A DNA stretch of 64,000 nt from Candidatus Kuenenia stuttgartensis. GTDB lineage: Bacteria > Planctomycetota > Planctomycetia > Planctomycetales > Planctomycetaceae. Under the pieces are notes generated by a model. That model ran no database searches and was not told the origin of the DNA. It saw only the letters and a program-made list of their open reading frames with translations. Shown here one piece after another: positions 1-60,504 of the stretch (position 1 is the first letter of the stretch; every line of letters begins with the position of its first letter). The position numbers were made by a program, and so were the translations under genes. Location: positions 1 to 64,000 of the forward strand of contig CAMDPK010000002.1 of NCBI GenBank assembly GCA_945904015.1, read 5' to 3'.

Positions 1-54
1 CCGCGCGGCGCTAGCCCCGGTTCAAGCTGCGTAACCGGGGCTAGCGCCGCGCGG
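1..54. repeat. Perfect inverted repeat, family A (copy A1)
   Basis: Two perfectly complementary 22-bp arms (1-22 and 33-54) surround a 10-nt loop. The arm core GGCGCTAGCCCCGGTT recurs at 7205-7263, so this is a dispersed repeat and not only a local terminator. It lies at the window edge, so the gene to its left is unknown. Confidence 0.85.
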
Positions 55-130
55 CTCATTTTCGGAATCCGGATGACATCCCCCGCTCGCCAATAGGGGA
101 AGACCTCTTCTCGGCGACCCCCAACGAAAA

Positions 131-159
131 GAGCCTGAGCTTTGTTCAAGCTCAGGCTC
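131..159 (-). terminator. Intrinsic terminator of the RTX gene
   Basis: A perfect 12-bp stem (131-142 with 148-159) closes a 5-nt loop. Read on the minus strand it is followed by TTTTCG. It lies 36 bp beyond the stop codon of the RTX metalloprotease gene, so it is a good candidate rho-independent terminator for that gene. Confidence 0.75.
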
Positions 160-194
160 TCTCGCTGTCACCGTCCGCGCGGGAACGGGGACGG

Positions 195-3100
195 TTACAG
201 CAGTTTCGTCAGCACTGTGGAGTCGAGCTGGAAGTTCTCTTTGATTTCACCGGCAACCCCGGTCACCGTGTCGTCTCCCTGATTGCCCGCGACGGTGTCG
301 GTGCCGCCTTGACCGTCGACGTTGTCGTTGCCGTCGCCGCCGAGCAGGATGTCTCGGCCGGCACCGCCTCGCAGCGTGTCATTGCCGTCACCACCAAGGA
401 TCGTGTCGTTGCCGGCGTTGCCTTGAACCACATCGTCGCCGTCGCCGCCGTCGATCAAGTCGTGGCCATCTTCGCCGAGAATCGTGTCGTTGCCGTCATC
501 GCCGCTGATCGTGTCATCGCCGAGACCGCCGAGAATCGAATCGTCGCCGTGGAAGCCGTTGACGAGGTCATTGCCATCGTTGCCATTGATCGTGTCGTTG
601 TCGGTTCCGCCATCGAGCGTGTCGTCCCCAGCCCCGCCGTCCAAGTTGTCGTCATCGGAGCCGCCCGCCAGGCTATCGTTGCCATCCATGCCGTTGAGCA
701 CGTCGTTGCCATTCAGCCCGGAGAGCGTGTCGTTGCCCGCACCGCCGTTGATGACATCGTTGAGGATGCCGCCCGTCAGGCTGTCGTCGCCGTCACCGCC
801 GTCGATGGTCGAGAGTCCGTCGCCGCCGTCGATGACGTCGCTGCCCGCACCGCCGTCAATGGAATCATCTCCGGCATCGCCACTGAGCGTGTCATCGCCG
901 TCGTTGCCGATGAGCGTGTCGTTGCCATCGCCGCCGCTCAGCAACTCGGCGCTGTCCGTGCCGACCAGCAAATCGTTGCCGGCTTCGCCGAACACTCGCA
1001 AGAGGACGCCGCCGAGCTTGGCTCCCGCGTCCGCCTGTACGCGGTCGTTGCCGGTACCGGCATTCAGCCGAAGTTCGGTCGCGCCCACTCCGCTCAGGTC
1101 CGCAACGTTGATGCGATCGGTGCCTCCCGCAGCCGTGACCTGCACGAGTTCGATGTCGCTGCTGAGAGACTGCGTCGTCGTGTCGATCGAGATGGTCAAC
1201 AATCCCGCCGCTTGTCCGACATTGAACGTGTTCGCTGAATTGCTGCCAAAGAACTCGAAGCTGTCGCTCCCTTCGCCGCCGACGATGGAATCGACGCCGT
1301 CGCCGAGCGCCGCAATGATCGAGTCGTCACCATCGCCGCCCAGGACCGTGTCTTTGCCCGCTCCGCCTCGCAACGTGTCGTTGCCCCCTTGTCCCTGAAT
1401 CGAATCGTTACCGGCCGCACCGACTAGACTGTCATCGCCGTCGCCACCTGCAAGCTGATCGTTCCCAACACCACCATTGAGCACGTCGTTCCCGGCACTG
1501 CCATTCAACGTGTCGTCGCCCGCTCCGCCCAGCAACGTGTCGCCGTTCACCGCTGCGACCGGCGTCGCGAGGGAAAAGGACAGATTGTCGATCGCAAATC
1601 GAGTTCCGCCGGTCGACGTTGGTGCCGACGTGAAATCCAACCGCATCCGCCGAACGGCCGTCGTGCCCGTGTAGCTGAAGTTCCCCTCGGTATACAGCAG
1701 GATCTGTTGTAGGTTGACCGTCGATGACGCAATCACGTTCAAGTTGCTGTCGAACAACGTGACCGCGACTCCATTGGGAATGCTGGGACCACTGCTGCGG
1801 GCGACGCCGAAGGACAACGTCGTCGCCGGCGACGTGAAATCCACCGTCAGCACACCCAGCGCATTGCCTTCCAATACTGGGTCGGTCAGAAACTGACTGA
1901 ATCCCGCTCCCGCACCAATCGAGACATTCAGATTGGCATCCGTCGAGTCGATCCCCGCGACTTGAAAACCAAACGTCGCTCCCAGAATCGACTGGCCGTT
2001 CGCGGGCGTGGAGGCTGGAACTTCGTCGAACGCGATTGTCGCTCGTCCAGCCGATGTCGTCGTGACGGCGGCGAGGACCGGGCCTGTCATCGGTCCCCCA
2101 GGCTGGGTGTTATTCCCCATGTATCCGACGGTCCACAGACGTGCGACTTCCCTTGTCAGCGGCTGCACGAGTTGGACGGGCTTGCTCGCAATTTGCCAGG
2201 TTCCACGCGGCCGGGCACTCACTCCGGTCGTCGAGATGACTGCCGCCAACGTGCTGGTCGCCGAGGTTCCGCTGAGTCCGGCCGTCGATGGGGTGAACGG
2301 GTCCGCTTGGCCGAAGTCCACCTGATAACCCATGTCCGCCAAGGCGGCGACGGTCACGCGACTGAGCGGGTTGCTGCCGGCACCAATCACGCTCGACATC
2401 AACTCGTTGCCGAATATGCTCTCGCGCCAGTGCAAGCCCGCCGATGCAGTTCCACCAACATTCTCCAATGGGACGTTGGGCTCAGTGGACCGGAAGATCC
2501 GGTCGTACTCACCGGTGGCTTGCGCTCCGATGAATCGCGGATTGCTCGTTCCCGCGCTGACGATCAAGCCTTGTTGAGCCCACACGGTGCCGAAGCCGAG
2601 GGCATGTCCGATCTCGTGCAAGATGACATCCGACAACGAACCGTCCGCTTCGATCGCGGCTAGATCGGCAGAGTCAATCGTGATCGACGCCATCGCCGGC
2701 AAGAACGAACCGGTTCGCTGCACGTCGATTCCCGTCTGCCCCATTACTCCGCCGGGACCATCAATCGCCGTGACCGTGACCGTGATCACCAGATCGTCGA
2801 TCGTGCCGACATTCGCCACGATCACGTCGGGCAAGTCGCCACGAATAATGGACTCCCACTTCGCTTCGGCCGCGTCGAACGCCGCAGTGTCGCTGGCACT
2901 TAGCCCAGCCGGCAAATCAATGACGATGTCGAATTGCCCTGGCGCACCAATCGGCACGCCGATCGTCCCGATGTCGTCCGCTCCGAACGAGGACACACCG
3001 TAGGGCAGCGTGATCGTTCGCAGCAGCGAGCCGTCGCGGTTGAAAATGTCCAGCGACGACGTGACGCTCAGCGCGGTCGCCGTCGAGACTCGCGAGCTTC

Positions 3101-4829: not shown

Positions 4830-5180
4830 AGCCCCATCCTTGGGAGAATGTGAGATTCAGACACCCCTCGTGAGCCGCCCGCTCGCCCTTGCGGACGAAC
4901 GATCGACACTCACGGCACAAACCTCGTGTGATCGTCAGTCTTCATCAGCCTTTCGGGACCGTTCGATTCAATACAAACGGAAAGGTCGCAGCACTCTCCG
5001 CGACCGAACTGCCCCGGAGGCGGAAACTCTTCGCCATTTTTCCAGGTCGAACATCTCGCAGAGATCGACGTCTGCCTAAGTCGCCGGGCTTACCCAGCCG
5101 AGAATCCTCTTGGTCGATTCTCGTGTGCGTTGATAGATTCCCGCCCCTTGCCACCAAAGCCTCTGATCTCAGGACCAATC
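4830..5180. other. Divergent intergenic region (about 350 bp)
   Basis: This stretch separates the divergently transcribed RTX and L,D-transpeptidase genes and must carry both promoters. No convincing coding sequence, hairpin or repeat was seen. Several short frames cross it but none has a credible ribosome site or recognisable protein. Confidence 0.4.
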
Positions 5181-7159: not shown

Positions 7160-7204
7160 GTCACGAGGTCGCAATAACTTCCCGAAGTGAAACAGGCTGA
7201 TATC

Positions 7205-7263
7205 AGCCGCAGGGCGCTAGCCCCGGTTCGGATGACACAAACCGGGGCTAGCGCCCTGCGGCT
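7205..7263. repeat. Inverted repeat, family A (copy A2)
   Basis: Perfect 24-bp arms (7205-7228 and 7240-7263) around an 11-nt loop, sharing the core GGCGCTAGCCCCGGTT with copy A1. It lies in the convergent junction between the HPt-like gene (+) and the BBP7-like gene (-), so it could also terminate transcription from both sides. Confidence 0.85.
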
Positions 7264-7274
7264 AATCGGGAAAT

Positions 7275-9343: not shown

Positions 9344-9423
9344 GTAGCCGCATTCGCCAGAACGCGGGAGCATGTGAGAATCGCCAATCTGCGGGGAACC
9401 CACATTCTGGCGAGTACGGCTAC
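9344..9423. repeat. Composite inverted repeat, family G (copy G1)
   Basis: Outer arms GTAGCCGCATTCGCCAGAA (9344-9362) and its near-complement (9405-9423) differ at two positions. The left arm plus following bases can fold alone (CCGCATTC GCCA GAACGCGG, one mismatch). The right end CTAC abuts the altronate-dehydratase gene; reading outwards, that gene ends TAA-ATG-TAG in frame, the second stop being the repeat terminus. Confidence 0.75.
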
Positions 9424-13946: not shown

Positions 13947-13994
13947 TCGATTTCCGGCTTGTTGTTCGTCAGCCGTTTCATTCCGATACGCCGC

Positions 13995-16900
13995 ATGAAC
14001 CCGATCATCTTCGCTCTGCGCCGGCCGATCACCGTCATGGTTGGGATCATCGCCGTCGTGCTGACAGCGTTTGTCGCGGTGCGGCCGAAGGCGTTTGACG
14101 TCGCACTGGCGAAGGTCGGCATCGAGTTGCCGCTCAAGCGGATGCCGATCGACATCTTTCCGGCGCTGAACCTGCCGGTGATCTACGTCTGTCAGCCGTA
14201 TGGCGGCATGGACCCAGCTCAGATGGAAGGGTTGCTGACCAATTACTACGAGTACCACTTCCTCTACATCAACGGCATCCATCACGTCGAGAGCCGCAAT
14301 GTCCAGGGCACCGCGTTGATGAAGCTCATCTTTCATCCGGGCACGAACATGGCCCAGGCGATGGCCGAGACGATCAACTACGTCAACCGCTCGCGAGCGA
14401 TGATGCCCCCTGGCACAGTCCCGCCGTTCGTCATGCGGTTCGACACCGGCAGCGTGCCGGTCGGTTACTTGGTCTTCTCGTCTGAGACGCGCACGATTGG
14501 CGAGATCTCAGATCTGGCTCTGATGAAAGTGCGGCCGATGTTTTCGGCACTGCCGGGCGTGAGTGCTCCGCCGCCGTTTGGCGGGAGCGCTCGCAGCATT
14601 GTCGTCCGCGCCGACCCGGATCGCTTGCGAGCTTATGGCATCGCGCCCGACGACGTCGTCAACGCGCTCGTGTCCGGCAACACGATCAGCCCGTCCGGCA
14701 ATCTGCGGATCGGCGACAGCTATCCGATGGTGCCGACCAACGCGATGGTCAAAGACATTCGCGAACTCGGCAACATCCCGATCAAAGTCGGCGCGGGAGG
14801 CGGATCAATTGGCGGAGCCGCCGCGATCGGCAGCGCGAGCACCGTTTATCTGCGCGACATCGGTTCGATTGACGACGCAACCGACATTACGACTGGCTAC
14901 TCGCTCGTGAACGGCCGCCGAGCGGTTTACATCCTCGCGACTAAGCGGGCCGATGCCTCGACGATGAGCGTCATCGACGAAATCAAAGCTGCGATGCCGA
15001 AGTTCCGTGCCGAGGTTCCGTCCGACATCAACGTCTCGTTTGAGTTCGATCAATCGCCGTACGTCACGCGCGCGATCAACAGCCTTGCGACCGAAGGGAC
15101 TCTTGGAGCGATCCTCACTGGCCTGATGGTACTGGTGTTCTTGCGCGACTGGCGGAGTGCGCTGGTCGTCGTGCTCAATATCCCGCTGGCGATTGCGGCG
15201 TCGATCGTCGGTCTGTGGCTCTGCGGCCAGACGATCAACCTGATGACCCTCGGTGGACTCGCACTGGCGGTCGGCATTCTGGTCGATGAAGCGACCGTCG
15301 AGATCGAAAACATCCACACGCAAATGCAACACACCTCATCCGTCGCCTGGGCGGTGCGGCTCGGCAACGCGCAAACCGCGATCCCGCGATTGCTGGCGAT
15401 GCTCTGCATCCTGGCCGTTTTCGTGCCGAGCTTCTTCATGTCAGGAGCCGCTCGCGAACTGTTCGTCCCGCTGTCGCTGGCCGTCGGCTTCTCGATGATC
15501 GCGTCGTACATCCTGTCGAGCACCTTCGTGCCAGTGGTGGCAACGTGGCTGCTCAACGTGGGGCAGGTTTCCAACCTGCCCGGCCACACCGCCATCGAAT
15601 CAGAACATCCACATGCGGTTGGACAGGCCGGGCAGGTTGAAAACCTGCCCCACGGGATCTACTCCAGCCTTGTCACCGCAATCGTCCGCCTGCGTTGGCT
15701 CGTTGTGCCCGCATATCTGGTGGTCTGCGGAGCAACCCTCTTCTGGGCCAGCGGCCGGCTGGGCGTCGAAATTTTTCCGACGGTCGATGCCGGTGAATTC
15801 CGACTGCGGTTCCGTGCTCCCGATGGCACGCACATCGAAAGGACCGAGAAATTCGCGCTTGAGATCCTCGACACCGTCAAACAAAAAGTCGGCGAGCAGA
15901 ACGTCGCGATGACGCTCGGTTACATCGGCACGGTGCCAGCCAGCTTTCCGATCAACTCGGTCTATCACTTTTCACGTGGGCCGGAAGAGGGATTATTGCG
16001 GATCGCCCTCACGCCAAACTCCGGCATCAGCACGGAGGCGATGAAAGAAGAACTCCGCCGCGAGTTTCTCGACCGCTTCCCGACCGTGCGATTCTCGTTC
16101 GAGCCGGCCGACATCATCAGTGAAGTCATGAGCTTCGGTTCGGCGACGCCGATTGAGATCGCCGCGCGCGGTGGCAGCCTCGACGAGAACCACGAGTACA
16201 TCGGCAAAGTCCAAATCGCACTCGGCAAACTCCCCGCGATCCGAGACATGCAGGTCGTGCAGGCTCGCTATTACCCGACGGTCGAGATCAAAGTGGATCG
16301 CGAGAAGGCCGGCCTCTCCGGCACGACGGTCTCGCAAGTCGCGCGGTCGATCGTCACCGCAACATCCTCCAGCCGCTTTGTCGTGCCGAACTATTGGCCC
16401 GATCCGAAAACCGGCATCGGTTATCAAGTGCAGGTCGAAATCCCGCAGCCGCAGCTCGACAGCATCGAAGACCTCGGAGCCGTTCCGATTCAACGCAGTT
16501 CAGGTGCTGCCTCCGGTCAATCCTTGCTGCTCCGTGACGTCGCTTCGCTGGTGGATGGAAAGTCGCCCGGCGAATACGACCGCTACAACATGAAACGCGA
16601 AATCAGCCTCACCGCCAACATCGTGGGTGACGATCTCGGTGCCGTCTCACAGCAAATCACACTCGCTCTGAATGCTGTCGGCAAAGAAGACGCGGACGCC
16701 AAAGCGAAGGTCCACCAGGAAGCCGTCGCGAAAGCGAACGCCGCCGGAAACCCCGATCCGCCCAAACCCGCCAGCATCCACCACGAACTGCGCGGCCAGA
16801 TCCCGCCGCTGCGTGCGATCATGAACGGCCTGGGCATCGGCCTGCTGCTGGCGGTGCTCGTGATCTTCTTGATGTTGAGCGCCAATTTCCAAAGCTGGCG

Positions 16901-17438
16901 ACTCGCGTTCGTCACGGTCTCGACCGCGCCCGCTGTGATCACCGGAGTCGCGATGTCGCTGCTACTGACCGGCAGCACGCTCAACATCCAAAGCTTCATC
17001 GGCGCGATCATGAGTCTCGGCGTCGCGATGGCCAACGCGATCCTGCTGGTGACATTTGCGGAAGAACGCCGTAAGTTGGGCACTCTTGCCCAGCCTGATT
17101 TGGAGAAAAATCACGACGGCAAACACAAAAGACGGGACGGGCAAGAGTGCCCATCCTACGACGCGGCCGTGTACGGCGCGACCAGCCGGCTGCGAGCGAT
17201 CGCCATGACCAGTGCTGCGATGCTGGCCGGCATGTTGCCGCTGGCTCTGGGCCTCGGCGAATCCGGCCAACAAACCGCACCGCTCGGCCGAGCCGTCATG
17301 GGCGGCCTGCTCGCCGCGACGTTCGCGACACTGCTCATCCTGCCTGCTGTTTTCGCGATCGTGCAATCGCGAGCCACCACGAAGTCCGCTTCGCTCGACC
17401 CCGAAGACCCAGAGAGTGCGAATTACGTCACGATGTAG
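13995..17438 (+). CDS. RND-family efflux pump inner-membrane subunit with two repeat-derived inserts
   Basis: Proton-driven tripartite efflux pump subunit of 1147 residues (AcrB/CzcA superfamily). Typical features: first helix ITVMVGIIAVVLTAF, porter region PIDIFPALNLPVIYV, the helix 4 motif GGLALAVGILVDEATVEIEN, and the duplicated second half with VEIFPTVDAGEFRLRFRAPDGTHIE and ATSRLRAIAMTSAAMLAGMLPLALG. Two palindromic repeats lie within the frame: residues 522-553 (family B) between the sixth and seventh helices, and about residues 1026-1055 (family C) just before ATSRLRAIAM. Both fall in predicted cytoplasmic loops and keep the frame open. The stop codon TAG (17436-17438) is part of a third repeat, C2. 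ATG 13995 chosen over 13959 because it places the first helix correctly. Followed by adaptor and TolC genes. Confidence 0.92.
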   Translation: MNPIIFALRRPITVMVGIIAVVLTAFVAVRPKAFDVALAKVGIELPLKRMPIDIFPALNLPVIYVCQPYGGMDPAQMEGLLTNYYEYHFLYINGIHHVESRNVQGTALMKLIFHPGTNMAQAMAETINYVNRSRAMMPPGTVPPFVMRFDTGSVPVGYLVFSSETRTIGEISDLALMKVRPMFSALPGVSAPPPFGGSARSIVVRADPDRLRAYGIAPDDVVNALVSGNTISPSGNLRIGDSYPMVPTNAMVKDIRELGNIPIKVGAGGGSIGGAAAIGSASTVYLRDIGSIDDATDITTGYSLVNGRRAVYILATKRADASTMSVIDEIKAAMPKFRAEVPSDINVSFEFDQSPYVTRAINSLATEGTLGAILTGLMVLVFLRDWRSALVVVLNIPLAIAASIVGLWLCGQTINLMTLGGLALAVGILVDEATVEIENIHTQMQHTSSVAWAVRLGNAQTAIPRLLAMLCILAVFVPSFFMSGAARELFVPLSLAVGFSMIASYILSSTFVPVVATWLLNVGQVSNLPGHTAIESEHPHAVGQAGQVENLPHGIYSSLVTAIVRLRWLVVPAYLVVCGATLFWASGRLGVEIFPTVDAGEFRLRFRAPDGTHIERTEKFALEILDTVKQKVGEQNVAMTLGYIGTVPASFPINSVYHFSRGPEEGLLRIALTPNSGISTEAMKEELRREFLDRFPTVRFSFEPADIISEVMSFGSATPIEIAARGGSLDENHEYIGKVQIALGKLPAIRDMQVVQARYYPTVEIKVDREKAGLSGTTVSQVARSIVTATSSSRFVVPNYWPDPKTGIGYQVQVEIPQPQLDSIEDLGAVPIQRSSGAASGQSLLLRDVASLVDGKSPGEYDRYNMKREISLTANIVGDDLGAVSQQITLALNAVGKEDADAKAKVHQEAVAKANAAGNPDPPKPASIHHELRGQIPPLRAIMNGLGIGLLLAVLVIFLMLSANFQSWRLAFVTVSTAPAVITGVAMSLLLTGSTLNIQSFIGAIMSLGVAMANAILLVTFAEERRKLGTLAQPDLEKNHDGKHKRRDGQECPSYDAAVYGATSRLRAIAMTSAAMLAGMLPLALGLGESGQQTAPLGRAVMGGLLAATFATLLILPAVFAIVQSRATTKSASLDPEDPESANYVTM
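15557..15654. repeat. Composite inverted repeat, family B, inside the RND pump gene (copy B1)
   Basis: 29-bp arms with one mismatch (15557-15585 and 15626-15654) around a 40-nt centre. Each arm folds alone (GGGCAGGTT, short loop, AACCTGCCC). The 96 bp from GTG to CAC are exactly 32 codons in frame, encoding a peptide that begins VGQVSNLP and ends AGQVENLPH. Confidence 0.9.
17071..17159. repeat. Composite inverted repeat, family C, inside the RND pump gene (copy C1)
   Basis: Left end GTAAGTTGGGCACTCTTGCC and right end GGCAAGAGTGCCCATCCTAC are complementary arms around a diverged A-rich centre. The left terminus reads GTAAG where copy C2 has GTAGG, and the pump gene reads through as CGT AAG. 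It adds about 29 residues (KLGTLAQPDLEK...RRDGQECPSY). Confidence 0.85.
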
Positions 17439-17490
17439 GATGGGCACTCTTGCCCGTCCCTGCCGCGACGGGCAAGAGTGCCCGTCCTAC
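17435..17490. repeat. Composite inverted repeat, family C (copy C2)
   Basis: Arms begin GTAGGATGGGCACTCTTGCC and end GCAAGAGTGCCCGTCCTAC with a short centre. Each arm is itself a hairpin (GGATGGGCA CTCT TGCCCGTCC, one wobble). The TAG in its first four bases is the stop codon of the RND pump gene. It ends 15 bp before the adaptor gene. Confidence 0.9.
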
Positions 17491-17505
17491 AAAACGAGTC
17501 CCACG

Positions 17506-19080: not shown

Positions 19081-20706
19081 GTGATTGCCGAGCTGCGACA
19101 ACTTGGCTTCGCTGCTGTTTGCGGTCTGCTGGCGATCATCGCCGGCTGCGCGACATCATCGACCGTCAGCGTCCGCGAGATTCGGCCGCACTCGATCGCC
19201 GCGAAGCCAAAAACCAACAACGCAAAGCTCGCGCATCGTCCGCATCGCGAGTTCATCGACACGAAGTCCATTGCCTCTGACACACCCAACGTCATCGAGC
19301 CGACATCGTTCGTGGTGGAAGTCACCGTGCCTCCGCAGCCTGCGGAACCAGGTCACTCGTCGCCGATCACGCCGCAGCCAGCAGCACCGACCGGATATTC
19401 GATTGACCTCGCATCGGCGTTGCAGCTTGCGGCCGGGCAGAATCCGAACGTCGCGTTCGCACGCGAGCGGATCAACGAGGCGTATGCTCAGCACGCGCGA
19501 GCCGAAGCTTTGTGGCTGCCGTCAATCCGAGCCGGTGGCAACTGGAACAAGCACGAAGGTCGCATTCAGGATGTGAAGGGCGACGTGTTCAACACGAGCC
19601 GCGGTTCGTTCTTCGGTGGACTTGGAGCCAACACGGTTGGAGCCGGTTCGCCGACGGTGCCGGGCGTGTTCGCGTCGTTTCATCTGACCGATGCGATTCA
19701 CCAGCCGACGATCACCGGCCACTCCGCCGCATCGCGGCAGTATTCGGCGTCCGTGACCGAGCAAGACGTGATGCTGCAAACGGCGACCGCGTACCTGGAA
19801 CTGCTGCGAGCCAACCAAGAACTCGCGATCGCTCGCGACATCGAGCAACTTGCTCAAAAGCTGACGGACCTGACCAAGGCGTATTCCGACACCGGTCAAG
19901 GACTCGCCGCAGATCACGACCGCGCTCGTGCGGAGTGGGCCGTGAGACGGAACGAATCGGTGCGGGCTGAAGAAGGGGTGCAGGTCGCGAGTGCGCGACT
20001 CGCACAACTGCTGCACATCGACCCGTCGGTCGAATTGTTGCCGACCGAAACGACCGTTGCACCGCTGTCGCTGACGAACGGGAACGGTTCGCTGCAAGAA
20101 CTCGTCGCGACCAGCTTGTCGCACCGCGCCGAAATCTGCGAGCAACGTCAGCTTGTCGCCGAGGCTTGCGCACGCTTGAAACGCGAAAAGCACGCGCCGC
20201 TGCTGCCCAGCGTGCTGCTCGGCGTCAGTTACGGCGGATTCGGCGGTGGACTCGGTGACAACTTCCGTCGGCCGGGCGACCGGCTCGACGCCGACGCCAT
20301 CGCATTTTGGGAGGTCCGCAATCTCGGACTCGGTGAGAAAGCCGCTCGTGACGAAGCGAGTTCACGAGTCAACCAAGCGCGCTGGCGCGAGATCGCGACT
20401 CTCGACCGCATCGCTCGCGAAGTGGTCGAAGCACACGCGCAGGTCGCGGCTCGGCAACGGCAACTCGCAGTCGCCGAAGAGGGTGTTCAAGCCGCCGCGA
20501 GTTCGTTCGAGCGAAACTCGGAACGCATTCGCAACGCTCAAGGCTTGCCGTTGGAGACACTCCAATCGTTGCAGGCGCTGGCTCAAGCTCGACGTGAATA
20601 TCTCCGCACAATCAACGACTACAACGTCGCGCAGTTTCAACTGCAACGCGCGCTGGGCTGGTCCCAAGTAGGTCAGCCTTCCCAGGCTGACCCGATCAAG
20701 AATTGA
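19081..20706 (+). CDS. TolC-family outer membrane efflux lipoprotein
   Basis: 541-residue outer-membrane channel subunit of the tripartite pump. GTG start followed by a lipoprotein signal (GFAAVCGLLAIIAGCATS). After a proline-rich linker, two TolC repeats are visible, beginning IDLASALQLAAGQNPNVAFARERINEAYAQ and including long coiled-coil helices (NQELAIARDIEQLAQKLTDL; RQRQLAVAEEGVQAAASS). The last residues (SQVGQPSQADP) are encoded by the left arm of repeat D, so the C-terminus has been replaced or extended by it. It lies 228 bp after the adaptor gene with no gene in the gap. Confidence 0.9.
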   Translation: MIAELRQLGFAAVCGLLAIIAGCATSSTVSVREIRPHSIAAKPKTNNAKLAHRPHREFIDTKSIASDTPNVIEPTSFVVEVTVPPQPAEPGHSSPITPQPAAPTGYSIDLASALQLAAGQNPNVAFARERINEAYAQHARAEALWLPSIRAGGNWNKHEGRIQDVKGDVFNTSRGSFFGGLGANTVGAGSPTVPGVFASFHLTDAIHQPTITGHSAASRQYSASVTEQDVMLQTATAYLELLRANQELAIARDIEQLAQKLTDLTKAYSDTGQGLAADHDRARAEWAVRRNESVRAEEGVQVASARLAQLLHIDPSVELLPTETTVAPLSLTNGNGSLQELVATSLSHRAEICEQRQLVAEACARLKREKHAPLLPSVLLGVSYGGFGGGLGDNFRRPGDRLDADAIAFWEVRNLGLGEKAARDEASSRVNQARWREIATLDRIAREVVEAHAQVAARQRQLAVAEEGVQAAASSFERNSERIRNAQGLPLETLQSLQALAQARREYLRTINDYNVAQFQLQRALGWSQVGQPSQADPIKN

Positions 20707-20748
20707 CGTCGTTTGCCAATTCGCGTCAGGCTGGGAAGCCTGACCTAC
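20668..20748. repeat. Composite inverted repeat, family D, at a convergent junction
   Basis: Left arm 20668-20692 (GGTCAGCCT TCCC AGGCTGACC) and right arm 20724-20748 (GTCAGGCT GGGA AGCCTGAC) are each hairpins and are complementary to one another. The left arm encodes the TolC-type protein's C-terminus; the CTAC at the right end supplies the TAG stop (20745-20747) of the minus-strand kinase. Confidence 0.88.
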
Positions 20749-23329: not shown

Positions 23330-23377
23330 CGCGTCACCTCCGAGCGGAGATCGTAGCAATCGCCGATTCAATGACCA

Positions 23378-27167: not shown

Positions 27168-27297
27168 AACGTAGCCGCCTCGTTCCACGAGGCGGAGCAA
27201 TAACGACAGACTTGCCATTAGCAGCCGACCCCATTTTTTCTCTTCTTCCAAGCTGTCATTCCATAGCTCCGCCTCGTGGAATGAGGCGGCTACGTTC
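27168..27297. repeat. Composite inverted repeat, family H, at a convergent junction
   Basis: 31-nt arms (27168-27198 and 27267-27297) with one mismatch around a 68-nt centre. Each arm is a hairpin: CCGCCTCGT TCC ACGAGGCGG on the left, CCGCCTCGT GGA ATGAGGCGG on the right. Reading out of the right end, the DUF1501 gene ends TGA-ACG-TAG in frame, the last codon being the repeat terminus. Confidence 0.88.
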
Positions 27298-30475: not shown

Positions 30476-31822
30476 ATGCACATCGCAATCATCACAGCCG
30501 GCGGAGCGGGAATGTTCTGTGGGTCGTGCATGCACGACAACACTTGGGCGAGAGCGTTGATGGCCGCCGGTGCCGAGGTCTCTTTGATCCCGACTTACAC
30601 GCCCATCCGAGTCGATGAAACCGATGTCAGTTCGCCACACGTTTTCTTTGGCGGCATCAACGTCTATTTGGCCTCGAAGTGGCGCTGGTGGCGAGCGATA
30701 CCGGGCTTTGCGAGACGCTGGCTCGATCACCCGGCGATCATCCGATTGGCGACTCGCAAAGCGGTGAGCAACGACGCGGCCAAACTCGGCCAACTCACGC
30801 TCGACATGCTGGCCGGCGAGACCGGCCCGCAGCGCGAGCAAGTCGAAGAGCTCGCAAAGTTCATCGGCGAGCAATTGCGTCCGGACATCGTCATCTTCAG
30901 CAACACGCTACTGGCCGGAGCTGTCCGCCGAATCAAACAACTCTTCACTGGCCCGGTTCTTTGCGTGCTGCAAGGGGACGACATCTTCCTCGACTCGCTG
31001 CCGGATTCGCATCGCGAGCCAGTCCTGCAAGCTCTGCGAAACCGCGCTCGCGACTTCGACGGCTTCATCACTCACAGCCACTACTACGCCGAGCACATGC
31101 AGGGGATGTTGTTCCCAAACGTGGGGCAGGTTTCCAACCTGCCCACGACGGCCGGGCAGGTTGAAAACCTGCCCCACTTTCACATCCTGCCGCTCGGCAT
31201 CGACCTGACTGGTCACGACGGCCTGCCGCGTCCAGCCGGTGATCCATTCACGATCGGCTACTTCGCTCGACTCTGCCCCGAGAAGGGTTTGCACCTGCTC
31301 GTCGAAGCGTTCGCTCGTTTGCACGCGAAGCATCCGCGCACGCGGTTGCGAGTCGGCGGCTACTTGGGTGAGCGAGATCGACTGTACTTTGCGCACGTCC
31401 GTTCGCAGGCGGCACAACTCGGCCCGGCGTGCGAGTTCGTCGGCAGCCCGGCATCGCAGGCCGAAAAGGTCGAGTTCTTGAAGTCGCTAGATGTGCTCAG
31501 CGTCCCGACGGTCTATCGCGAGCCGAAAGGTCTCTCGATCCTCGAAGCCTTGGCCAACGGCGTCCCGTTCGTGCAACCGGCTCACGGAGCGTTCCCCGAA
31601 CTCCTGGCAGCCACGCAAGGTGGCCTGCTGTTCGAGCCAGGCAACCTCGACGACTTGGTTGCAAAATGGGAGTCGCTGCTGCGGCATCCCGACGAACGAT
31701 TGCGACTCGCCGGTGCCGGTCAAGCAATGGTGCGAGAGTTGTACTCGTCACAGGCGATGGCCGAACAATCTTGGCGACTGTTTGATTCGCTGACTCGACG
31801 ACAGGAGACTGCGCGTTCATGA
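30476..31822 (+). CDS. GT4-type glycosyltransferase with repeat-derived peptide insert
   Basis: 448-residue GT-B fold enzyme that would transfer a sugar from a nucleotide donor. N-terminal acceptor half (MHIAIITAGGAGMFCGSCMHD) and C-terminal donor half with IGYFARLCPEKGLHLLVEAF, PTVYREPKGLSILEALANGVPFVQPAHGAFPE and the GLLFEPGN loop. Residues 216-234 (VGQVSNLPTTAGQVENLPH) are exactly the 57 bp of a family B repeat inserted on a codon boundary, between the two halves of the fold. Stop overlaps the following kinase start by 4 bp (ATGA), so the two are coupled and probably act on one sugar pathway. Confidence 0.88.
   Translation: MHIAIITAGGAGMFCGSCMHDNTWARALMAAGAEVSLIPTYTPIRVDETDVSSPHVFFGGINVYLASKWRWWRAIPGFARRWLDHPAIIRLATRKAVSNDAAKLGQLTLDMLAGETGPQREQVEELAKFIGEQLRPDIVIFSNTLLAGAVRRIKQLFTGPVLCVLQGDDIFLDSLPDSHREPVLQALRNRARDFDGFITHSHYYAEHMQGMLFPNVGQVSNLPTTAGQVENLPHFHILPLGIDLTGHDGLPRPAGDPFTIGYFARLCPEKGLHLLVEAFARLHAKHPRTRLRVGGYLGERDRLYFAHVRSQAAQLGPACEFVGSPASQAEKVEFLKSLDVLSVPTVYREPKGLSILEALANGVPFVQPAHGAFPELLAATQGGLLFEPGNLDDLVAKWESLLRHPDERLRLAGAGQAMVRELYSSQAMAEQSWRLFDSLTRRQETARS
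31121..31177. repeat. Composite inverted repeat, family B, inside the glycosyltransferase gene (copy B2)
   Basis: 24-bp arms (31121-31144 and 31154-31177) with one mismatch around a 9-nt centre. Total length is 57 bp, exactly 19 codons, and it starts at a codon boundary of the host gene, in the same reading frame as copy B1 in the RND gene. Confidence 0.92.
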
Positions 31823-32888: not shown

Positions 32889-32947
32889 CGTGGGGCAGGT
32901 TTTCAACCTGCCCTTGAGGTCCGGGCAGGTTGAAAACCTGCCCCACG
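32889..32947. repeat. Composite inverted repeat, family B (copy B3)
   Basis: 25-bp perfect arms (32889-32913 and 32923-32947) around 9 nt. It sits between the PfkB kinase and dienelactone hydrolase genes, ending 17 bp before the latter's start codon; the ribosome site AAAGGAAC lies just outside. The frame continues from the repeat into the downstream gene, which invites mis-annotation of the start. Confidence 0.92.
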
Positions 32948-34756: not shown

Positions 34757-34849
34757 GCAGTTTCAAAACCAGCACGACGCGCCAGCGAGTGGTCGGTCAC
34801 TCGCGGAAAACAACCACTTGCTGGCGCGTCGTGCTGGCCTTGAAACCGC
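34757..34849. repeat. Inverted repeat, family J, at a convergent junction
   Basis: Arms of about 37 nt (34757-34793 and 34813-34849) share the core CCAGCACGACGCGCCAGC and its complement, with a few mismatches. It fills almost the whole 103-bp gap between the stops of hemB and the response regulator gene. Confidence 0.82.
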
Positions 34850-42483: not shown

Positions 42484-42558
42484 CGTGGGGTAGGCGGCTC
42501 GCCTGCCCACTTTCTCGTCACTATCTCAGCGAAGCACAGGCGAGCCGCCCGTGCCACG
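42484..42558. repeat. Composite inverted repeat, family K
   Basis: 22-nt arms (42484-42505 and 42537-42558) with a few mismatches around 31 nt. Inner hairpins AGGCG GCT CGCCT and AGGCG AGC CGCC have complementary loops. It ends 7 bp before the murJ ATG and lies in the divergent gap, so it must be transcribed with murJ. Confidence 0.78.
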
Positions 42559-46904: not shown

Positions 46905-46967
46905 CGTGGGGCAGGTTTTCAACCTGCCCGTGACATCCGGCCGGGCAGGTTGAAAACCTGCCCCACG
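46905..46967. repeat. Composite inverted repeat, family B (copy B4)
   Basis: 25-bp perfect arms (46905-46929 and 46943-46967) around 13 nt. Each arm is a hairpin with loop TTC or GAA. It lies about 115 bp before the TIM-barrel gene in the amtB divergent region. Confidence 0.92.
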
Positions 46968-50746: not shown

Positions 50747-50848
50747 CAGTGCAAAGTGCAAAGTGCAGAGTGACGAGTGCAAAGTGAAAAATGTCTGAAC
50801 GAGATTCTCACTTTGCACTTTGCAGTCTTCACTCTGCACTTGGCACTG
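50747..50848. repeat. Composite inverted repeat, family L (copy L1)
   Basis: Left arm is a tandem of AGTGCAAAGTGC/AGTGCAGAGTG units (50747-50790), right arm the imperfect complement (50806-50848). It occupies most of the gap between the lipid kinase and kdsA genes. The same unit family recurs at 60332-60472. Confidence 0.82.
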
Positions 50849-52447: not shown

Positions 52448-52544
52448 TCGTACCTCCTTGAGTTCCACATTTCGCAGTCTGTCGCCACTCGCACGGATCG
52501 CCAAGCCCAACACCGACGAGACGAGGTGGAGCCGCAACCCAAAA

Positions 52545-52633
52545 TAACCCGAAGCGTCAGCGAGGGCGAACACTTCAAATGACTGTGAATTGAACGCGTA
52601 TTGAAGCTTCGCCCTCGCTGACGCTTCGGGTTA
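52545..52633. repeat. Inverted repeat, family F
   Basis: Perfect 26-bp arms (52545-52570 and 52608-52633; core CCCGAAGCGTCAGCGAGGGC) around 37 nt. It lies in the divergent gap between the HAD and pseudouridine synthase genes. Unlike most others its arms do not fold well on their own. Confidence 0.9.
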
Positions 52634-52693
52634 CTTTTGCAGTACGCTGCGACACTTCACCGATCAAAACAGAACCAGTCAGCGAGTCTGCTC

Positions 52694-53396: not shown

Positions 53397-53461
53397 AGGA
53401 TGGGCACTCTTGCCCGTCCCTTTTCGGACGAACAGCGGACGGGCAAGAGTGCCCATCCTAC
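53397..53461. repeat. Composite inverted repeat, family C, at a convergent junction (copy C3)
   Basis: Left arm GAGGATGGGCACTCTTGCCC and right arm GGGCAAGAGTGCCCATCCTAC around a short centre. It fills the gap between the rluA-type and aldo/keto reductase genes. The right-end CTAC contains the reductase stop codon TAG (53458-53460). At the left end GTAG has become GGAG. Confidence 0.9.
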
Positions 53462-54423: not shown

Positions 54424-54590
54424 TTCATGCCCTCTCGAAAATGCGAAGACAATCGCATTTTGGAGCGGATCGTAGAGGACTCGAATCGGCCCGCAAGTTG
54501 TCCCGACCGCGAAACGGTGGTTGATGATTGCCTCCGCCCGCGCGTCGCGCTCTAATAGCCGCCGACGTTCAGTTCCCGTGGAGCAAAATC

Positions 54591-56419: not shown

Positions 56420-56475
56420 CGTGGGGCAGGTTTTCAACCTGCCCAGCACGGAGCAGGTTGAAAACCTGCTCCACG
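56420..56475. repeat. Composite inverted repeat, family B, at a convergent junction (copy B5)
   Basis: 25-nt arms (56420-56444 and 56451-56475) with two non-Watson-Crick positions around 6 nt. Each arm is a hairpin (GCAGGTT TTC AACCTGC; GCAGGTT GAA AACCTGC). It starts right after the oxidoreductase TAA and ends 2 bp before the Dabb gene TAA, filling the gap. Confidence 0.92.
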
Positions 56476-56477
56476 GG

Positions 56478-56891
56478 TTACTTCTGCGTCCAATAGTCCA
56501 CGACGCAGACGTCATCGACCTGCGGGCCGACGAGCTTCACAAAGTCTTTGTGGGCGACGTGCGGCAGATAGACGTCACGTCCCTTCTCGTCGGCGAACGT
56601 CACGAAGAAGCAATGCGTGAATCCCTTCGACTTTCCTTCGGAACTGACGTCGGTGCCCCATTCGAACTCGCGGATCGTGTCGATCTTGCTCGGCAGGCCA
56701 CCAAAGGCCGTTTCGATTTCTTTGATCTGCTCTTTGGTCGTGCCTTCTTTGAACTTGAAGAGCACAACATGCCGCAGCACTTTTCGCGGAGCTTCTTTGG
56801 ACTGCGCCGAGGTTTGGACGCTGTTGATCAAGCTCGCCATTGTCACCGCCACCATTGCAGAAACGATTGCCATCCCAAAGGTCTGTCGCAT
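56478..56891 (-). CDS. Secreted Dabb-domain (stress responsive alpha/beta barrel) protein
   Basis: 137 residues with a signal peptide (FGMAIVSAMVAVTMASLINS). The mature part matches the Dabb fold: LRHVVLFKFKEGTTKEQIKEIETAFGGL, EFEWGTDVSSEGKSKGFTHCFFVTF and YLPHVAHKDFVKLVGPQVDDVCVVDY. Dabb proteins are dimeric ferredoxin-like barrels, some enzymatic, many unknown. Located 50 bp downstream of a small membrane protein gene. Confidence 0.9.
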   Translation of the reverse strand: MRQTFGMAIVSAMVAVTMASLINSVQTSAQSKEAPRKVLRHVVLFKFKEGTTKEQIKEIETAFGGLPSKIDTIREFEWGTDVSSEGKSKGFTHCFFVTFADEKGRDVYLPHVAHKDFVKLVGPQVDDVCVVDYWTQK

Positions 56892-56941
56892 CGAGAATTC
56901 CTCGTTCGAAAACGATTGCCAAGTCGGTCGCGGTGCCGCGG

Positions 56942-57130
56942 CTACGTGGACTCTTTCATGGTCTCGTAACCCATGTAGATCACGATGGCCGCCGTGACCA
57001 GAAACAGGATGTCAAAGACCATCATTCCCGAATACGGAATGCCAATCACAAGATCGACGATGGCCGTCACGGCGACCAGGCCGGAAGCCACCATGGACCC
57101 AATCAACAGACGTTTGATCTGCTTCGACAT
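56942..57130 (-). CDS. Small two-helix membrane protein
   Basis: 62 residues, two hydrophobic helices (LLIGSMVASGLVAVTAIVDLVIGI and MVFDILFLVTAAIVIYMGYETM). ATG 57130 preferred to a GTG at 57148. No known family recognised. Upstream of the Dabb gene on the same strand, so possibly co-transcribed. Confidence 0.6.
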   Translation of the reverse strand: MSKQIKRLLIGSMVASGLVAVTAIVDLVIGIPYSGMMVFDILFLVTAAIVIYMGYETMKEST

Positions 57131-57395
57131 CGACAACTCGCGTGACACGGACGAGGGAGAATCACTGTTTCAATCGGCCACAAACGCGACCGAACGGCGA
57201 GCGAGTATAAAGACGACGTGCCCGGCAACTCCAGCCGAGCGGCAACTCATTCTGGCGACGCATCGCCGTTGCTTCCAAAACCGTTGGCCACTAACTTCAC
57301 GCCCTTCGCCAGCCATTGTCTTGAGTTGGCGGATCGGCAACCTCATTGCCGGTGAAGGAAATTCTCTTACCCCAGCCCCAGCAGGAGCACACATC

Positions 57396-57761
57396 GTGGC
57401 CAAAGACAAGAACAGTGACACCCTCAAGATCGATCCAGAAACCGCCCCCGAGGTTCCGGCCGCTGCGCCGGCCGCCGCCGCCCAGCAGACTCTGACCGTG
57501 GAAGACACCCACTCAGTCGCCAGCTACGCCAACTTCTGCCGCGTGTCGAGCACGCCGGAAGAGCTGATTCTCGATCTGGGACTGAACCCCAATCCGTTCG
57601 CTCAGGGGAGCGTCACGATCCATGTGGGACAGCGGATCATCATGAATCACTTTACGGCGAAGCGACTTCTGCAAGCGCTGGCCGTCACGCTGCAACGCCA
57701 TGAGCAGGCGTTCGGCACGCTCGAAACCGACGTCATGCGACGTTTGCGTTCGGCAACGTAA
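57396..57761 (+). CDS. DUF3467 domain protein
   Basis: 121 residues. A Pro/Ala-rich N-terminus leads to the DUF3467-like core YANFCRVSSTPEELILDLGLNPN, GSVTIHVGQRIIMNHFTAKRLLQALAVTLQRHEQAFG. GTG 57396 has AGGAG upstream; the open frame to 56985 is antisense to another gene and rejected. DUF3467 function is unknown. A second DUF3467-type gene follows 121 bp downstream. Confidence 0.8.
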   Translation: MAKDKNSDTLKIDPETAPEVPAAAPAAAAQQTLTVEDTHSVASYANFCRVSSTPEELILDLGLNPNPFAQGSVTIHVGQRIIMNHFTAKRLLQALAVTLQRHEQAFGTLETDVMRRLRSAT

Positions 57762-57882
57762 TTCGCCCCGCGATGGCAGCCAACATCCACAAGAACGTCG
57801 GTGTGCGGAACTGCCGCCACCGACGTTTTGCTGTCTGATGTGCTTAATCTCGCAACACTGAGCATCCACTGGGAGTGGCATT

Positions 57883-58563
57883 ATGAATGACATGCAACCC
57901 GAGCCGAACGACGACAACCCGGAAGAGAATCCCAACCGCGAGGTCGTCAGTCAGGAAGTTCAAAATACTCACATCGGTGCGTTGGTGCCGGAATCCATCG
58001 CGGCCGGTGTTTTCACCACCGGAGCCGTTGTGCTCAACGGACCGCACGAATTCATCATCGACTTCTTGCTGCGCATGTCGAAGCCACAGCAAGTGGCGGC
58101 TCGCGTCGTCTTGCCTCCGGCGGTCGTGCCCCGGTTCATCGCGGCCTTGCGCGAGAACGTCAAGAACTACACAGACCGGTTCGGCAGCCCGGCGATGCCC
58201 GGAACTCCAGCACATCCCCTCTGTCCGCCGGCGACGGCCGAGGCGTATCAGCAACAACAGCAACAGCCGCAGCCGCAAGGCTCGGCACAGGAACTCTACG
58301 AACAGCTCAAAATCAAAGACACGGAACTGGGTGGTGCGTACGCCAACGCGGTGATGATCGGCCACACGGCAACGGAATTCTTGTTCGACTTCATCACCAC
58401 GTTCTTTCCACGATCGGTCGTGTCGTCACGAGTCTACATGTCGGCTCCAAACGTGCCGCGACTTTTGGAATCGCTGACGCATTCATTCGACCAGTTCCAA
58501 CGCAAGCTCGCCGCCGGGCAACAACCGCCTCCGCCGCAAAAGCCGCTGGACGATTTGCTGTAG
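57883..58563 (+). CDS. Tandem DUF3467-like protein
   Basis: 226 residues containing two divergent DUF3467-like units: residues about 35-105 (AAGVFTTGAVVLNGPHEFIIDFLLRM...VVPRFIAALRENVKNYTDRFG) and about 150-210 (GAYANAVMIGHTATEFLFDFITTFFPRSVVSSRVYMSAPNVPRLLESLTHSFDQFQRKL), joined by a Gln/Pro-rich linker (QQQQQQPQPQ). Such an internal duplication suggests an intramolecular version of a dimer. Both ends are disordered. Its TAG stop (58561-58563) is the left terminus of repeat E. Confidence 0.75.
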   Translation: MNDMQPEPNDDNPEENPNREVVSQEVQNTHIGALVPESIAAGVFTTGAVVLNGPHEFIIDFLLRMSKPQQVAARVVLPPAVVPRFIAALRENVKNYTDRFGSPAMPGTPAHPLCPPATAEAYQQQQQQPQPQGSAQELYEQLKIKDTELGGAYANAVMIGHTATEFLFDFITTFFPRSVVSSRVYMSAPNVPRLLESLTHSFDQFQRKLAAGQQPPPPQKPLDDLL

Positions 58564-58672
58564 CCCTGTCGCTCCGCGACAGGGAAGCCGAACGCCCAAC
58601 AAGTGAAGCCGTTTCGCCAGATCGGAGTCATTGGCAGCGCTCGGCGTTCCTGTCACGGAGTGACAGGGCTAC
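58560..58672. repeat. Composite inverted repeat, family E, supplying both stop codons of a convergent gene pair
   Basis: Left hairpin CCCTGTCGC TCC GCGACAGGG (58560-58584 with flanks) and right hairpin CCTGTCAC GGA GTGACAGG (58649-58672) around 64 nt. GTAG at the left end contains the TAG of the DUF3467 gene; CTAC at the right end contains the TAG of the minus-strand gene. Confidence 0.92.
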
Positions 58673-60504
58673 TTTTGAGCGGCCGGTCTCGCGGGAGCCG
58701 GTGTCGCTTTTTTGCCGCCGCCGACTTCTTGGCGACCCTCGTTGGCGTTGGCCTCATCGTCGGCCTTCTTGAGTTCCGCCAATTCGTCTCGCTGCTCTTT
58801 GATTCGCTCATCGCTGAGATGACGGCTGATCAGTTGAGCCGAATCGCCGCAGAGCTTGTCGATTTTCTTTTCGAGGCCCTTGTCCTTCTTCGCCTGAGCT
58901 TTTTTGAGCATCGCGGCTTTGACGGCATCGAGCAGAGTTTGAAAATGGTGGGCTTTCGGCTGTCGGTCAAGATCGGCCAGCGTCTCGTTAAACCGGGTCC
59001 AATCGCCGGCCTTCGCTGCCCCTTTCGCGCGAGCGATCATCAACGCTCGCCGAGCGACCGAATCGATCAACTCGGCCCGCAGCAGTTCCAGTTGGCTTTC
59101 GATTTGCAGACGCAGCGAATCGTCCGGCAATTCCGCGGTCGTCGTTGGAGCGACTCCGGGGATGAACGGGAAACGCCCCAGCAAATTTCCGCCACTGGAA
59201 ACGTACAACCAGATCAGCGGCTTCCCCGGATTCAGCGGCACGGTCACTCGCCCACGACGATCGGTGACCAGTTCCAGCACCTTGTTGAACTGCGTGACAA
59301 ACTGGGGGCCGGCCGGTTTCGGCGGGGCATCCTCGGACTCAGCTTCATCAGATTTCTTGGCCTCAGAAACCTTCGCTGCTTCGGGCGGAGCCTGTGGAGC
59401 CGGGACAATCTGCCGTTCATAGACATTGACTTGATAGCCGATCAGCGGCTTCGTCGGGTTGTTGTGCGGCGTGAGGCGGATGCGCGTCTCGTTGAACGCC
59501 GGACGCACACCGATGGCCCAACTTTCGACACGTTTGGTGTTCTTGCCCAACGGCAGGCGCAGACCGGTATGAATCGAGCACTCGCCGCGAGCACGATCGC
59601 TCGATTCCATCAGCAGGTACGACCACGGAATCATCTGCACCTGAGTCACTTCACGATCCTTGTTGAAGTATCGCAGCAGCGGTTGGAAATAATTGCCCTT
59701 CGCCAGTTGCTCAACCGACGGATCGGCAGAGGGGAACTCACCGGCTCGCACGCGGACTTTGCCCACACCCCCTTCGGCGCTTTCGATCAGGACCAGCGGA
59801 CGAAACAAATTCCGGATGACATCGCCCAGTTCGTTGGTCAACGCGCGACGATCGCCGACAATTCGCTCCTGCCGCACGCTCAGTTGCTGAGTCATCCGAT
59901 CCCACTCCCGTCCACAAACCCGCAACACGCTGCCGTGTCCCGAAACACAAACCACGAACGCTTTGTCGAGTTCCTTGTCCGCGAGTTGTGCTTCTAGCGA
60001 CGCCCAATTCAGACGCGACAACCCGTCCTCGTTCTCCGGCGCGAGCCAGCGATTTTCCTCGACCGCCGCGAACCACATTTCACCAAACGTGCGGTCAATC
60101 CAAGTCGTCAGCTCTGCCAAAACTTCGTGCCGCATGCGAGCCGTCAATGATGGATGTTCGTCGAAGGCCACGCTGATTCGCACGCGATATGGCTGCAATT
60201 CCATCGGCGTTGGCGGCGGCGCTTCGGCTGGCTTCTCGACGATTTTGACTTTCGAAGCCGGAACATCAGCCGGAGCCGTGGGATTGTCCTGTGCGACAGC
60301 CGGCGTGACGAGAACTGCGATGAGCAACAACCAGTGCAAAGTGCAGAGTGCAGAGTGCAAAGTGAAAAATGGCGGACGGCGTCGCACAAATTTTCTCACG
60401 CCAAACGCGACGGCGCGGCAACTCAGTCGGTCACTTTGCACTTTGCACTCTGCACTCTGCACTTTGCACTCTCCTTCATTCGGTCGGGTATCACGGCCTC
60501 TCAT
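58669..60504 (-). CDS. Secreted protein of unknown function whose N-terminus is built from a palindromic repeat
   Basis: 611 residues if started at ATG 60504, which overlaps the upstream stop by 4 bp. Residues about 10-55 are repeat L2 translated (ECKVQSAECKVQS at the left, TLHSALCTLH at the right), the latter running straight into the hydrophobic core WLLLIAVLVTPAVA, so the signal peptide is partly repeat-derived. The mature part has VRISVAFDEHPSLTARMRHEVLAELTTWIDRTFGEMW, a low-complexity Lys/Ala/Glu C-terminus and no recognised family. It may work with the adjacent solute-binding-like protein. An internal start inside the repeat cannot be excluded. Confidence 0.65.
   Translation of the reverse strand: MRGRDTRPNEGECKVQSAECKVQSDRLSCRAVAFGVRKFVRRRPPFFTLHSALCTLHWLLLIAVLVTPAVAQDNPTAPADVPASKVKIVEKPAEAPPPTPMELQPYRVRISVAFDEHPSLTARMRHEVLAELTTWIDRTFGEMWFAAVEENRWLAPENEDGLSRLNWASLEAQLADKELDKAFVVCVSGHGSVLRVCGREWDRMTQQLSVRQERIVGDRRALTNELGDVIRNLFRPLVLIESAEGGVGKVRVRAGEFPSADPSVEQLAKGNYFQPLLRYFNKDREVTQVQMIPWSYLLMESSDRARGECSIHTGLRLPLGKNTKRVESWAIGVRPAFNETRIRLTPHNNPTKPLIGYQVNVYERQIVPAPQAPPEAAKVSEAKKSDEAESEDAPPKPAGPQFVTQFNKVLELVTDRRGRVTVPLNPGKPLIWLYVSSGGNLLGRFPFIPGVAPTTTAELPDDSLRLQIESQLELLRAELIDSVARRALMIARAKGAAKAGDWTRFNETLADLDRQPKAHHFQTLLDAVKAAMLKKAQAKKDKGLEKKIDKLCGDSAQLISRHLSDERIKEQRDELAELKKADDEANANEGRQEVGGGKKATPAPARPAAQK
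60332..60472. repeat. Composite inverted repeat, family L, at a gene 5-prime end (copy L2)
   Basis: Arms of AGTGCAAAGTGC / AGTGCAGAGTGC-like units (60332-60364 and 60432-60472) are near-complementary around 67 nt. On the minus strand it is entirely within the open frame of the 58669 gene. Confidence 0.85.

Follow-up and report, generated by a model that had tools for sequence, protein, structure and literature searches.

A stretch of 64,000 bases from a planctomycete deposited as Candidatus Kuenenia stuttgartensis carries many inverted repeats of unrelated sequence that seem to follow one design. Two questions arise from it: (i) what kind of elements these palindromes are; and (ii) whether a single mechanism could stand behind families that share no sequence. 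The stretch, called the window below, comprises bases 1–64000 of contig C2 (107,939 bases) in a draft genome of 7.43 Mb and 286 contigs. For one protein of the window, the best matches in named genomes are to planctomycete MAGs, in keeping with the planctomycete origin that the initial annotation assumed. Judging from sequence comparison, 17 of its 19 elements are very probably REPINs, i.e., two repetitive extragenic palindromic (REP) hairpins in inverted orientation with a tag facing outward, and the unrelated families would have in common the machinery of REP-associated tyrosine transposases (RAYTs). The other two elements are built of 7-nt units and are taken up separately.

Inverted repeats and their architecture

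The window sites were picked from the 25 longest of 31 inverted pairs of at least 20 nt. After removal of the two weak pairs at 23352 and 55888, along with rows duplicating a site, 19 distinct sites of 54–138 bp remained between positions 1 and 60470 (Table 1), in about 11 families; the initial annotation, made from the letters of the window, had counted about 20 elements of 53–141 bp in at least nine families, and agrees well with this result. The repeat survey covered 81 stretches totalling 1.64 Mb, or 22% of the source genome, with the window included. A stricter repeat caller returned 321 inverted repeats in these stretches and recovered 15 of the 19 window sites. Comparison with chance places inverted repeats far above expectation, with 163 observed and 1 simulated in a single Markov-2 simulation over 40 of the 81 stretches. 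Single-linkage clustering lumped 241 of the 321 elements, and another clustering was used instead; it gave 74 clusters, 40 of which have at least two members. That all the elements belong to one insertion-sequence family is ruled out by the 74 clusters. Families are multicopy and dispersed within the 1.64 Mb, e.g., 35 pairs for F00, 33 for F01, 23 for F02 and 20 for F03.

Three architectures can be distinguished. Families of the GTRG type (F00, F03, F06, F23 and others) have a GTAG or GTGG tag facing outward, a near-perfect stem and a loop of 3–4 nt. Bulged families (F01, F02, F08 and others), as read by eye, have a tag such as CCAG, TCAG, TGAG, GTAA or GTAG, followed by a stem of 3 bp, a 5′ bulge of two bases (GA or CA) and a further stem closed by C-GNNA-G. 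The third architecture consists of heptad arrays and has no arm hairpin. The inverted pair of REPs plus a linker, by which REPINs are recognized, was found here. Of the 261 arms in families of at least three members, 110 have GTAG or GTGG among their first 8 nt, and as a tag this characterizes the GTRG families only; the arm hairpin is lacking at 50747 and 60333, whose arms have a period of 7.

The initial annotation had also described each arm as a hairpin in eight of its families. Of the 19 window arms, 11 fold better than their mononucleotide shuffles at p ≤ 0.05, and the other eight do not (1, 9344, 17067, 34757, 42484, 50747, 56420 and 60333), including the two with 7-nt tandem arms. Among 27 families with at least three members, half or more of the arms pass the folding test in 19 and fewer than half in eight. 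The complementary loops of the two arms have no value as a special sign, because a second arm that is the reverse complement of the first necessarily produces them.

RAYT genes and the occupation of orthologous sites

Model and protein searches gave no Y1/RAYT match anywhere in the window. The earlier statement that the window has no transposase or RAYT gene was therefore correct as to Y1/RAYT genes; the source genome nonetheless has 11 Y1 matches outside it, two of them IS200-like and one (C60) weak. The sources of Y1 genes were the Pfam Y1_Tnp model, the NCBIfam REP_Tyr_transpos model and one protein search with the C69 protein. A match to the NCBIfam model (E ≤ 1e-5) occurs in 35 of 40 genomes, counting the source genome. 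Removal of ten same-place duplicates left 93 distinct Y1 loci in the source genome and its relatives.

A REP family was considered linked to a Y1 gene if it lies on both flanks of that gene within 1.2 kb. Such same-family flanks were found at 27 of the 93 Y1 loci, compared with 17 of 2000 points drawn at random from the source genome; a linked transposase, which the annotation had suggested looking for, is present for many families elsewhere in the source genome and in relatives. Linkage on both flanks was seen for 19 families in all, and those represented in the window (F00, F01, F02, F03, F06, F08 and F23) account for 14 of its 19 elements. Within the source genome, four of the 11 Y1 loci form pairs with a family (C69 with F02, C5 with F06, C76 with F08, and C229 with F00, the commonest family of the window), and congeners add F01 in G010 and G001, F03 in G001 and F23 in G006. 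A scan independent of family, in uncorrected coordinates with five places doubled, examined 98 Y1 loci and detected an inverted repeat close to 62 of them, in 29 cases on both sides. The putative REPINs of the window are accordingly of three kinds: 14 assigned through a family with a RAYT on both flanks, one through linkage on one flank, and two by architecture alone. At another locus (L009), a palindromic unit in two copies lies upstream of position 4830, before an IS200-like gene.

A tree of 92 Y1 cores, from which row L095 (59 aa) was left out, points in the same direction. A branch with support of 97/95 separates all 15 rows labelled bulged from all 22 GTRG, 5 GGGGTC and 5 GGAGT rows. REP labels change 21 times on the tree versus 42.4 times in shuffles, and none of 200 shuffles gave an equally low number. 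The five GGGGTC rows fall in a 100/99 clade along with 14 unlabelled rows, and the five GGAGT rows in a 100/93 clade along with four unlabelled rows. RAYTs associated with bulged REPs thus appear to form one side of a supported branch. We take the tree as support and not as proof, because its labels were set unblinded, partly by motif alone and with 45 rows unlabelled, and because the bulged rows come from the C69-protein search and the others from the family-model searches, so that collection and label are not independent.

Beyond these two properties of the tree, a number of observations weigh against attributing the palindromes to RAYTs. GTRG rows are scattered over several clades, and the GGGGTC and GGAGT rows alone are scarcely more clustered than in shuffles (4 changes, 4.9 expected). 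Eight of the 11 source-genome Y1 matches attain the Pfam cut-off, C111 barely (23.2 in one search, 21.9 in another); the F00 partner, C229, is matched by the NCBIfam model only and under its cut-off (74.7 of 80 bits), C76 was detected solely in the search with the C69 protein, to which it is 42% identical, and the Y1 frame of C5 has just 140 aa. By the flank test, 66 of the 93 Y1 loci have no same-family pair. The query arms were taken from the source genome, some from the C69 and C5 stretches themselves, and the random control points all lie in the source genome while most Y1 loci lie in relatives. The family at 20668 is linked to a Y1 gene on one side only, and among the 93 Y1 loci no gene carries the 9344 family on both flanks and none linked to the 42484 family was found. 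The tags of F01, F02 and F08 read CCAG, GTAA and TCAG instead of GTAG, yet these families flank Y1 genes; their arms mostly fail the folding test (3% of 33 pass in F01, 39% of 23 in F02 and 30% of 10 in F08), and for this reason the bulged hairpin is one read from the letters and not from the test. Finally, RAYTs do not account for the two heptad elements.

Comparison of orthologous sites was possible for eight window sites (42484, 46905, 50747, 52541, 53397, 56420, 58560 and 60333); the other 11 had no orthologue within the relatives' stretches compared, and row G002 at 52541 was discarded as not credible. Elements are present, absent or replaced between relatives at orthologous sites. The empty sites that the initial annotation had proposed to look for occur in relatives, as do other families at the same site. 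The element at 42484 is missing in five of the six relatives compared and present in G009, that at 52541 is missing in four relatives, and that at 53397 is missing in three, with an F12-type REPIN in G006 at the identical GTAG...CTAC point. Site 58560 holds F06 in the source genome and G006, a single F06 REP in G011, and a single F03-like REP in G005, G003 and G009.

Replacement extends to sites within genes. One protein loop of an AcrB-family gene, compared by eye, contains F00 in the source genome, a bulged REPIN in G007 and probably, from protein likeness to G007, also in G004, an F07/F08 pair in G011, another palindrome in G010, and heptads in G009 and, with a shorter right arm, in G005; the loop contents of G002 and G003 were left without assignment, G006 fell outside the alignment, and the gene had no match in G001 and G008. 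A glycosyltransferase gene has elements in the source genome, G005 (a single REP) and G007, and none in the seven other relatives aligned, a set without G003 and G010, which were not aligned. In lying inside genes with the reading frame kept, the in-gene copies resemble the palindromic elements of Rickettsia; unlike in Rickettsia, one protein loop here holds several unrelated families in different species.

Could the palindromes instead be structural elements made by the host, such as terminators or mRNA stabilisers, which are selected for their hairpin and are not mobile? Several sites are occupied in most relatives by different families (60333, 58560 and the pstB-phoU site described below), as such a role would predict. 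Against it stand close relatives that have no element at a site, REP families that flank RAYT genes on both sides, in-gene copies with a preserved reading frame, and near-identical copies dispersed in the genome, and we consider this explanation quite improbable.

We therefore return to RAYT-driven REPINs. By analogy with published RAYT work, a RAYT would bind its own REP as a single-stranded hairpin, cut near the tag and disseminate copies of the REPIN, and the gain, loss and switching of RAYTs could leave a single genome populated by many families that are alike in design and unrelated in sequence. The idea in the initial annotation of one common mechanism for sequence-unrelated families is supported in this form for most elements, the mechanism being the known RAYT machinery. 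Our confidence is slightly lowered because of the folding failures and the way in which the tree rows were collected.

Heptad palindromes

The elements at 50747 and 60333 have tandem 7-nt units in both arms, in convergent orientation. Period-7 arrays number 86 in the 1.64 Mb versus 4 in a Markov-1 control, and 54 of the 86 are accompanied within 150 nt by an inverted 9-mer partner, versus 111 of 2000 random 30-mers; a stricter rule gave 22 inverted same-motif pairs within 150 nt among 91 arrays. Corresponding numbers for other periods are 54 versus 7 (period 6), 18 versus 7 (period 8) and 16 versus 0 (period 14). With a strict array caller, period 7 comprises 68 arrays, its multiple, period 14, comprises 67, and periods 5, 6, 8 and 9 comprise 0, 8, 6 and 7, respectively. 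Of 296 inverted-repeat arms of at least 20 nt, 37 are periodic, 29 of these with period 7 in 11 clusters, as compared to about 9 periodic and about 1 of period 7 among shuffled arms.

Orientation was considered in three ways. Adjacent strict array pairs are convergent (+-) in 13 of 15 cases and divergent (-+) in none. ATTGCAA pairs within 250 nt are convergent in 20 of 20 cases from seven genomes, a count that takes in neither contigs matched on one strand only nor pairs with a wider separation (a convergent pair in G006 at ~470 nt, a divergent pair in G010 at ~1.5 kb, and others more distant). Finally, G exceeds C going from outside in for 28 of 29 period-7 arms versus 171 of 321 of all arms, 13 of the 29 being from one family and so non-independent.

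At the 60333 site, heptads are found in nine of ten congeners, G001 being merely suggestive, and their motif differs between species: AGTGC-type in the source genome, G005 and G003; ATTGCAA in G006, G009, G011 and G010; ATTGAAA or ATTGGAA in G007 and G004; and mixed in G002. Left and right arms match in most species, and they agree more within species than across species (0.487 versus 0.210 when shuffled), with 4 of 20,000 shuffles as high, which is not a clean probability, as the species are related, the signal is largely between three motif groups, and the arms were cut by hand. Agreement is poor in G003 (0.08), G002 (0.00) and G005 (0.30). The 50747 site has no heptads in G003 and G006. By eye, a site between pstB and phoU has ATTGCAA in the source genome and G010, GATT-type heptads in G005, an AATGNCC type in G009 and G007, ATTTGAR in G002 and G004, and nothing in G003; the left arm is C-rich in G009 and G007, contrary to the orientation rule.

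How such palindromes form is considered under two scenarios. According to the first, they arise and change in place, through slippage in steps of 7 nt and through copying of one arm on the template of the other. The predominance of period 7 with the strict array caller, the within-species arm agreement at 60333, and a spacer type that in seven relatives accompanies several motif states, as seen by eye, would all fit this scenario. On the other hand, the kinship, grouping and hand-cut arms noted above weaken the shuffle, the three species with poor agreement do not conform, the AGTGCAR and ATTGCAA spacers look non-homologous, so that replacement is possible, and the fixed orientation is left unexplained. 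We give this scenario a nearly even chance.

In the second scenario, the heptads form the ends of a mobile element, and some transposase outside the known ones would move it. This would account for the dispersal of the AGTGCAA family in 13 copies, the exact 28-bp arm common to two octad loci, the 50747 site without heptads in two relatives, and the restriction of heptads in the AcrB loop to G009 and G005. However, spacers vary by eye between loci and are alike among orthologues, the one gene found in between such palindromes reads as phoU, and none of the 11 period-7 clusters belongs to the 19 families that flank Y1 genes on both sides, nor was any linked transposase found. A heptad transposon therefore seems unlikely to us.

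Two findings of the survey deserve separate mention. Octad arrays (GTGACAAG and variants) occur as inverted repeats at L020:7025–7097 and L028:4759–4835, with the 28-bp arm in common and different spacers. A phoU-like gene lies between two ATTGCAA heptad palindromes at L028:16753–17659, and both flanking sites vary among species. No other candidate came up for a mobiliser located between heptad palindromes, and this one was rejected, since by eye (no family search was made) it reads as phoU, between ribF and pstB.

The heptad arrays most likely reflect a different, non-RAYT process, perhaps slippage by 7 nt with fold-back copying between the arms. Tentatively, we suggest that a separate mechanism may build paired, convergent 7-nt arrays in which the sequence is free while period, orientation and arm likeness are kept, the arms templating each other or being rewritten together; it would be a sequence-independent generator of palindromes and not a transposon family. 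A convergent ATTGCAA pattern matched none of 149 genomes of the phylum, the source genome included, and was thus too strict to be informative. A plain 20-mer occurs in 8 of 40 genomes including the source, all eight within the 12 of the genus and none among the 28 others.

Table 1. Inverted-repeat elements of the window with putative assignments (arm p, folding of the arm versus shuffles).
Position	Assignment	Basis and remarks
1..54	REPIN, F08	bulged hairpin, C-GCTA-G loop by eye; arm p 0.18
7202..7266	REPIN, F08	repeat, clustering, arm folding
9344..9423	REPIN by architecture, GTAG tag, F12-like (GTAGCCGCATTCGCCAGAACGCGG)	arm p 0.085
15557..15654	REPIN, F00, GTGG tag	within AcrB-family gene 13959–17438, reading frame preserved
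17067..17163	REPIN, F03	close to 3′ end of AcrB-family reading frame 13959–17438; arm p 0.15
17434..17491	REPIN, F03, GTAG tag	repeat, clustering, arm folding
20668..20748	REPIN, GTAG tag (GTAGGTCAGCCTTCCCAGGCTGACC)	one-sided link is to L189 Y1 gene
27168..27296	REPIN, F23, GTAG tag	F23 on both flanks of L183 Y1 gene
31118..31180	REPIN, F00, 63 bp	within glycosyltransferase gene 30476–31822, reading frame preserved
32889..32947	REPIN, F00	repeat, clustering, arm folding
34757..34849	REPIN, F01	bulged hairpin, C-GCCA-G loop by eye; arm p 0.51; F01 flanks Y1 genes in L127, L132
42484..42558	REPIN by architecture, GTGG tag variant	arm p 0.455
46905..46967	REPIN, F00	repeat, clustering, arm folding, orthologue comparison
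50747..50848	inverted heptad arrays, AGTGCAA and variants	period-7 arms; arm p 0.24
52541..52637	REPIN, F02	GTAA tag, bulge, C-GTCA-G loop by eye; F02 flanks C69 Y1 gene
53397..53459	REPIN, F03	orthologue comparison
56420..56475	REPIN, F00	arm p 0.055
58560..58672	REPIN, F06, GTAG tag	assignment from sequence; F06 flanks C5 Y1 gene on both sides
60333..60470	inverted heptad arrays, AGTGCAA and variants	period-7 arms; arm p 0.105

Elsewhere in the window, a 1544-aa minus-strand frame (195–4829) contains 27-bp tandem repeats encoding nine-residue units.

Relation to known systems

The bulk of the finding belongs to a system that is rich but already known. REPINs, or bacterial interspersed mosaic elements (BIMEs), with their RAYT (TnpA-REP) likewise consist of an inverted REP pair with a variable linker and the tag outward, in several families with their own RAYTs. 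The parts of the literature cited here list 24 GTAG families, several of them together in some organisms including R. baltica (PMC3733652), and RAYT-defined REP classes numbering 22 in pseudomonads and 13 in stenotrophomonads (PMC3686654). The contrast drawn in the initial annotation with ordinary REPs, said to form one family, therefore fails, as several REP families per genome are already published (PMC3733652, PMC3686654); its phrase that design is shared and sequence is not is less apt for the hairpin class and a better fit for the heptad class. Perfect and bulged REP palindromes belong to different RAYT groups according to the portion of PMC8266576 consulted, and the two REP types here resemble those of the two groups. 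Unlike in the strains covered by the cited part of PMC3686654, for which at most four RAYTs per strain are reported, up to 13 RAYT-model matches per genome (fragments included) were found here, and bulged families bear CCAG, TCAG or GTAA where GTAG would stand. In relatives, some Y1 genes have flanking inverted repeats that start with GGGGTC and not GTAG, as in the TIRYT elements (terminal inverted repeats associated with tyrosine transposases) described in PMC3733652; this type was seen beside relatives' genes and is no window family. Y1 genes adjoining GGGGTC-type inverted repeats are those at L161, L163, L170, L172 and L122.

For the heptads, the nearest likeness is to Xanthomonas and cyanobacterial heptamers, which also form 7-nt tandem arrays. 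The sections of PMC4692102 cited give 70 and 75 close convergent array pairs of GGGAATC in two Xanthomonas genomes, a pairing similar to that seen here, and few convergent pairs in Nostoc. Unlike in Xanthomonas, many unrelated 7-mers stand together in one genome here, with motifs that vary among species at one site, and the window units have no GGG run able to form G-quadruplexes: the AGTGCAA units of both window elements lack GGG, which some other heptads of the source genome contain. Direct repeats of TAACTGA are described from Beggiatoaceae and cyanobacteria in PMC4679880, which also quotes a proposal that polymerase contact length favours 7 nt. Among the papers listed by a literature search limited to open licences, none dealt with planctomycete heptad palindromes.

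It is the heptad class that deserves to be followed. Where orthologous sites differ in their heptads and the arms match, a comparison of strains can probe why bacterial tandem repeats favour 7 nt. In-gene REPINs show palindromes supplying linkers to proteins. Finally, a genus with many RAYT-REP pairs, with REP architectures that appear to track RAYT branches and with variably filled sites, provides a good natural set for the study of RAYT-REP co-evolution.

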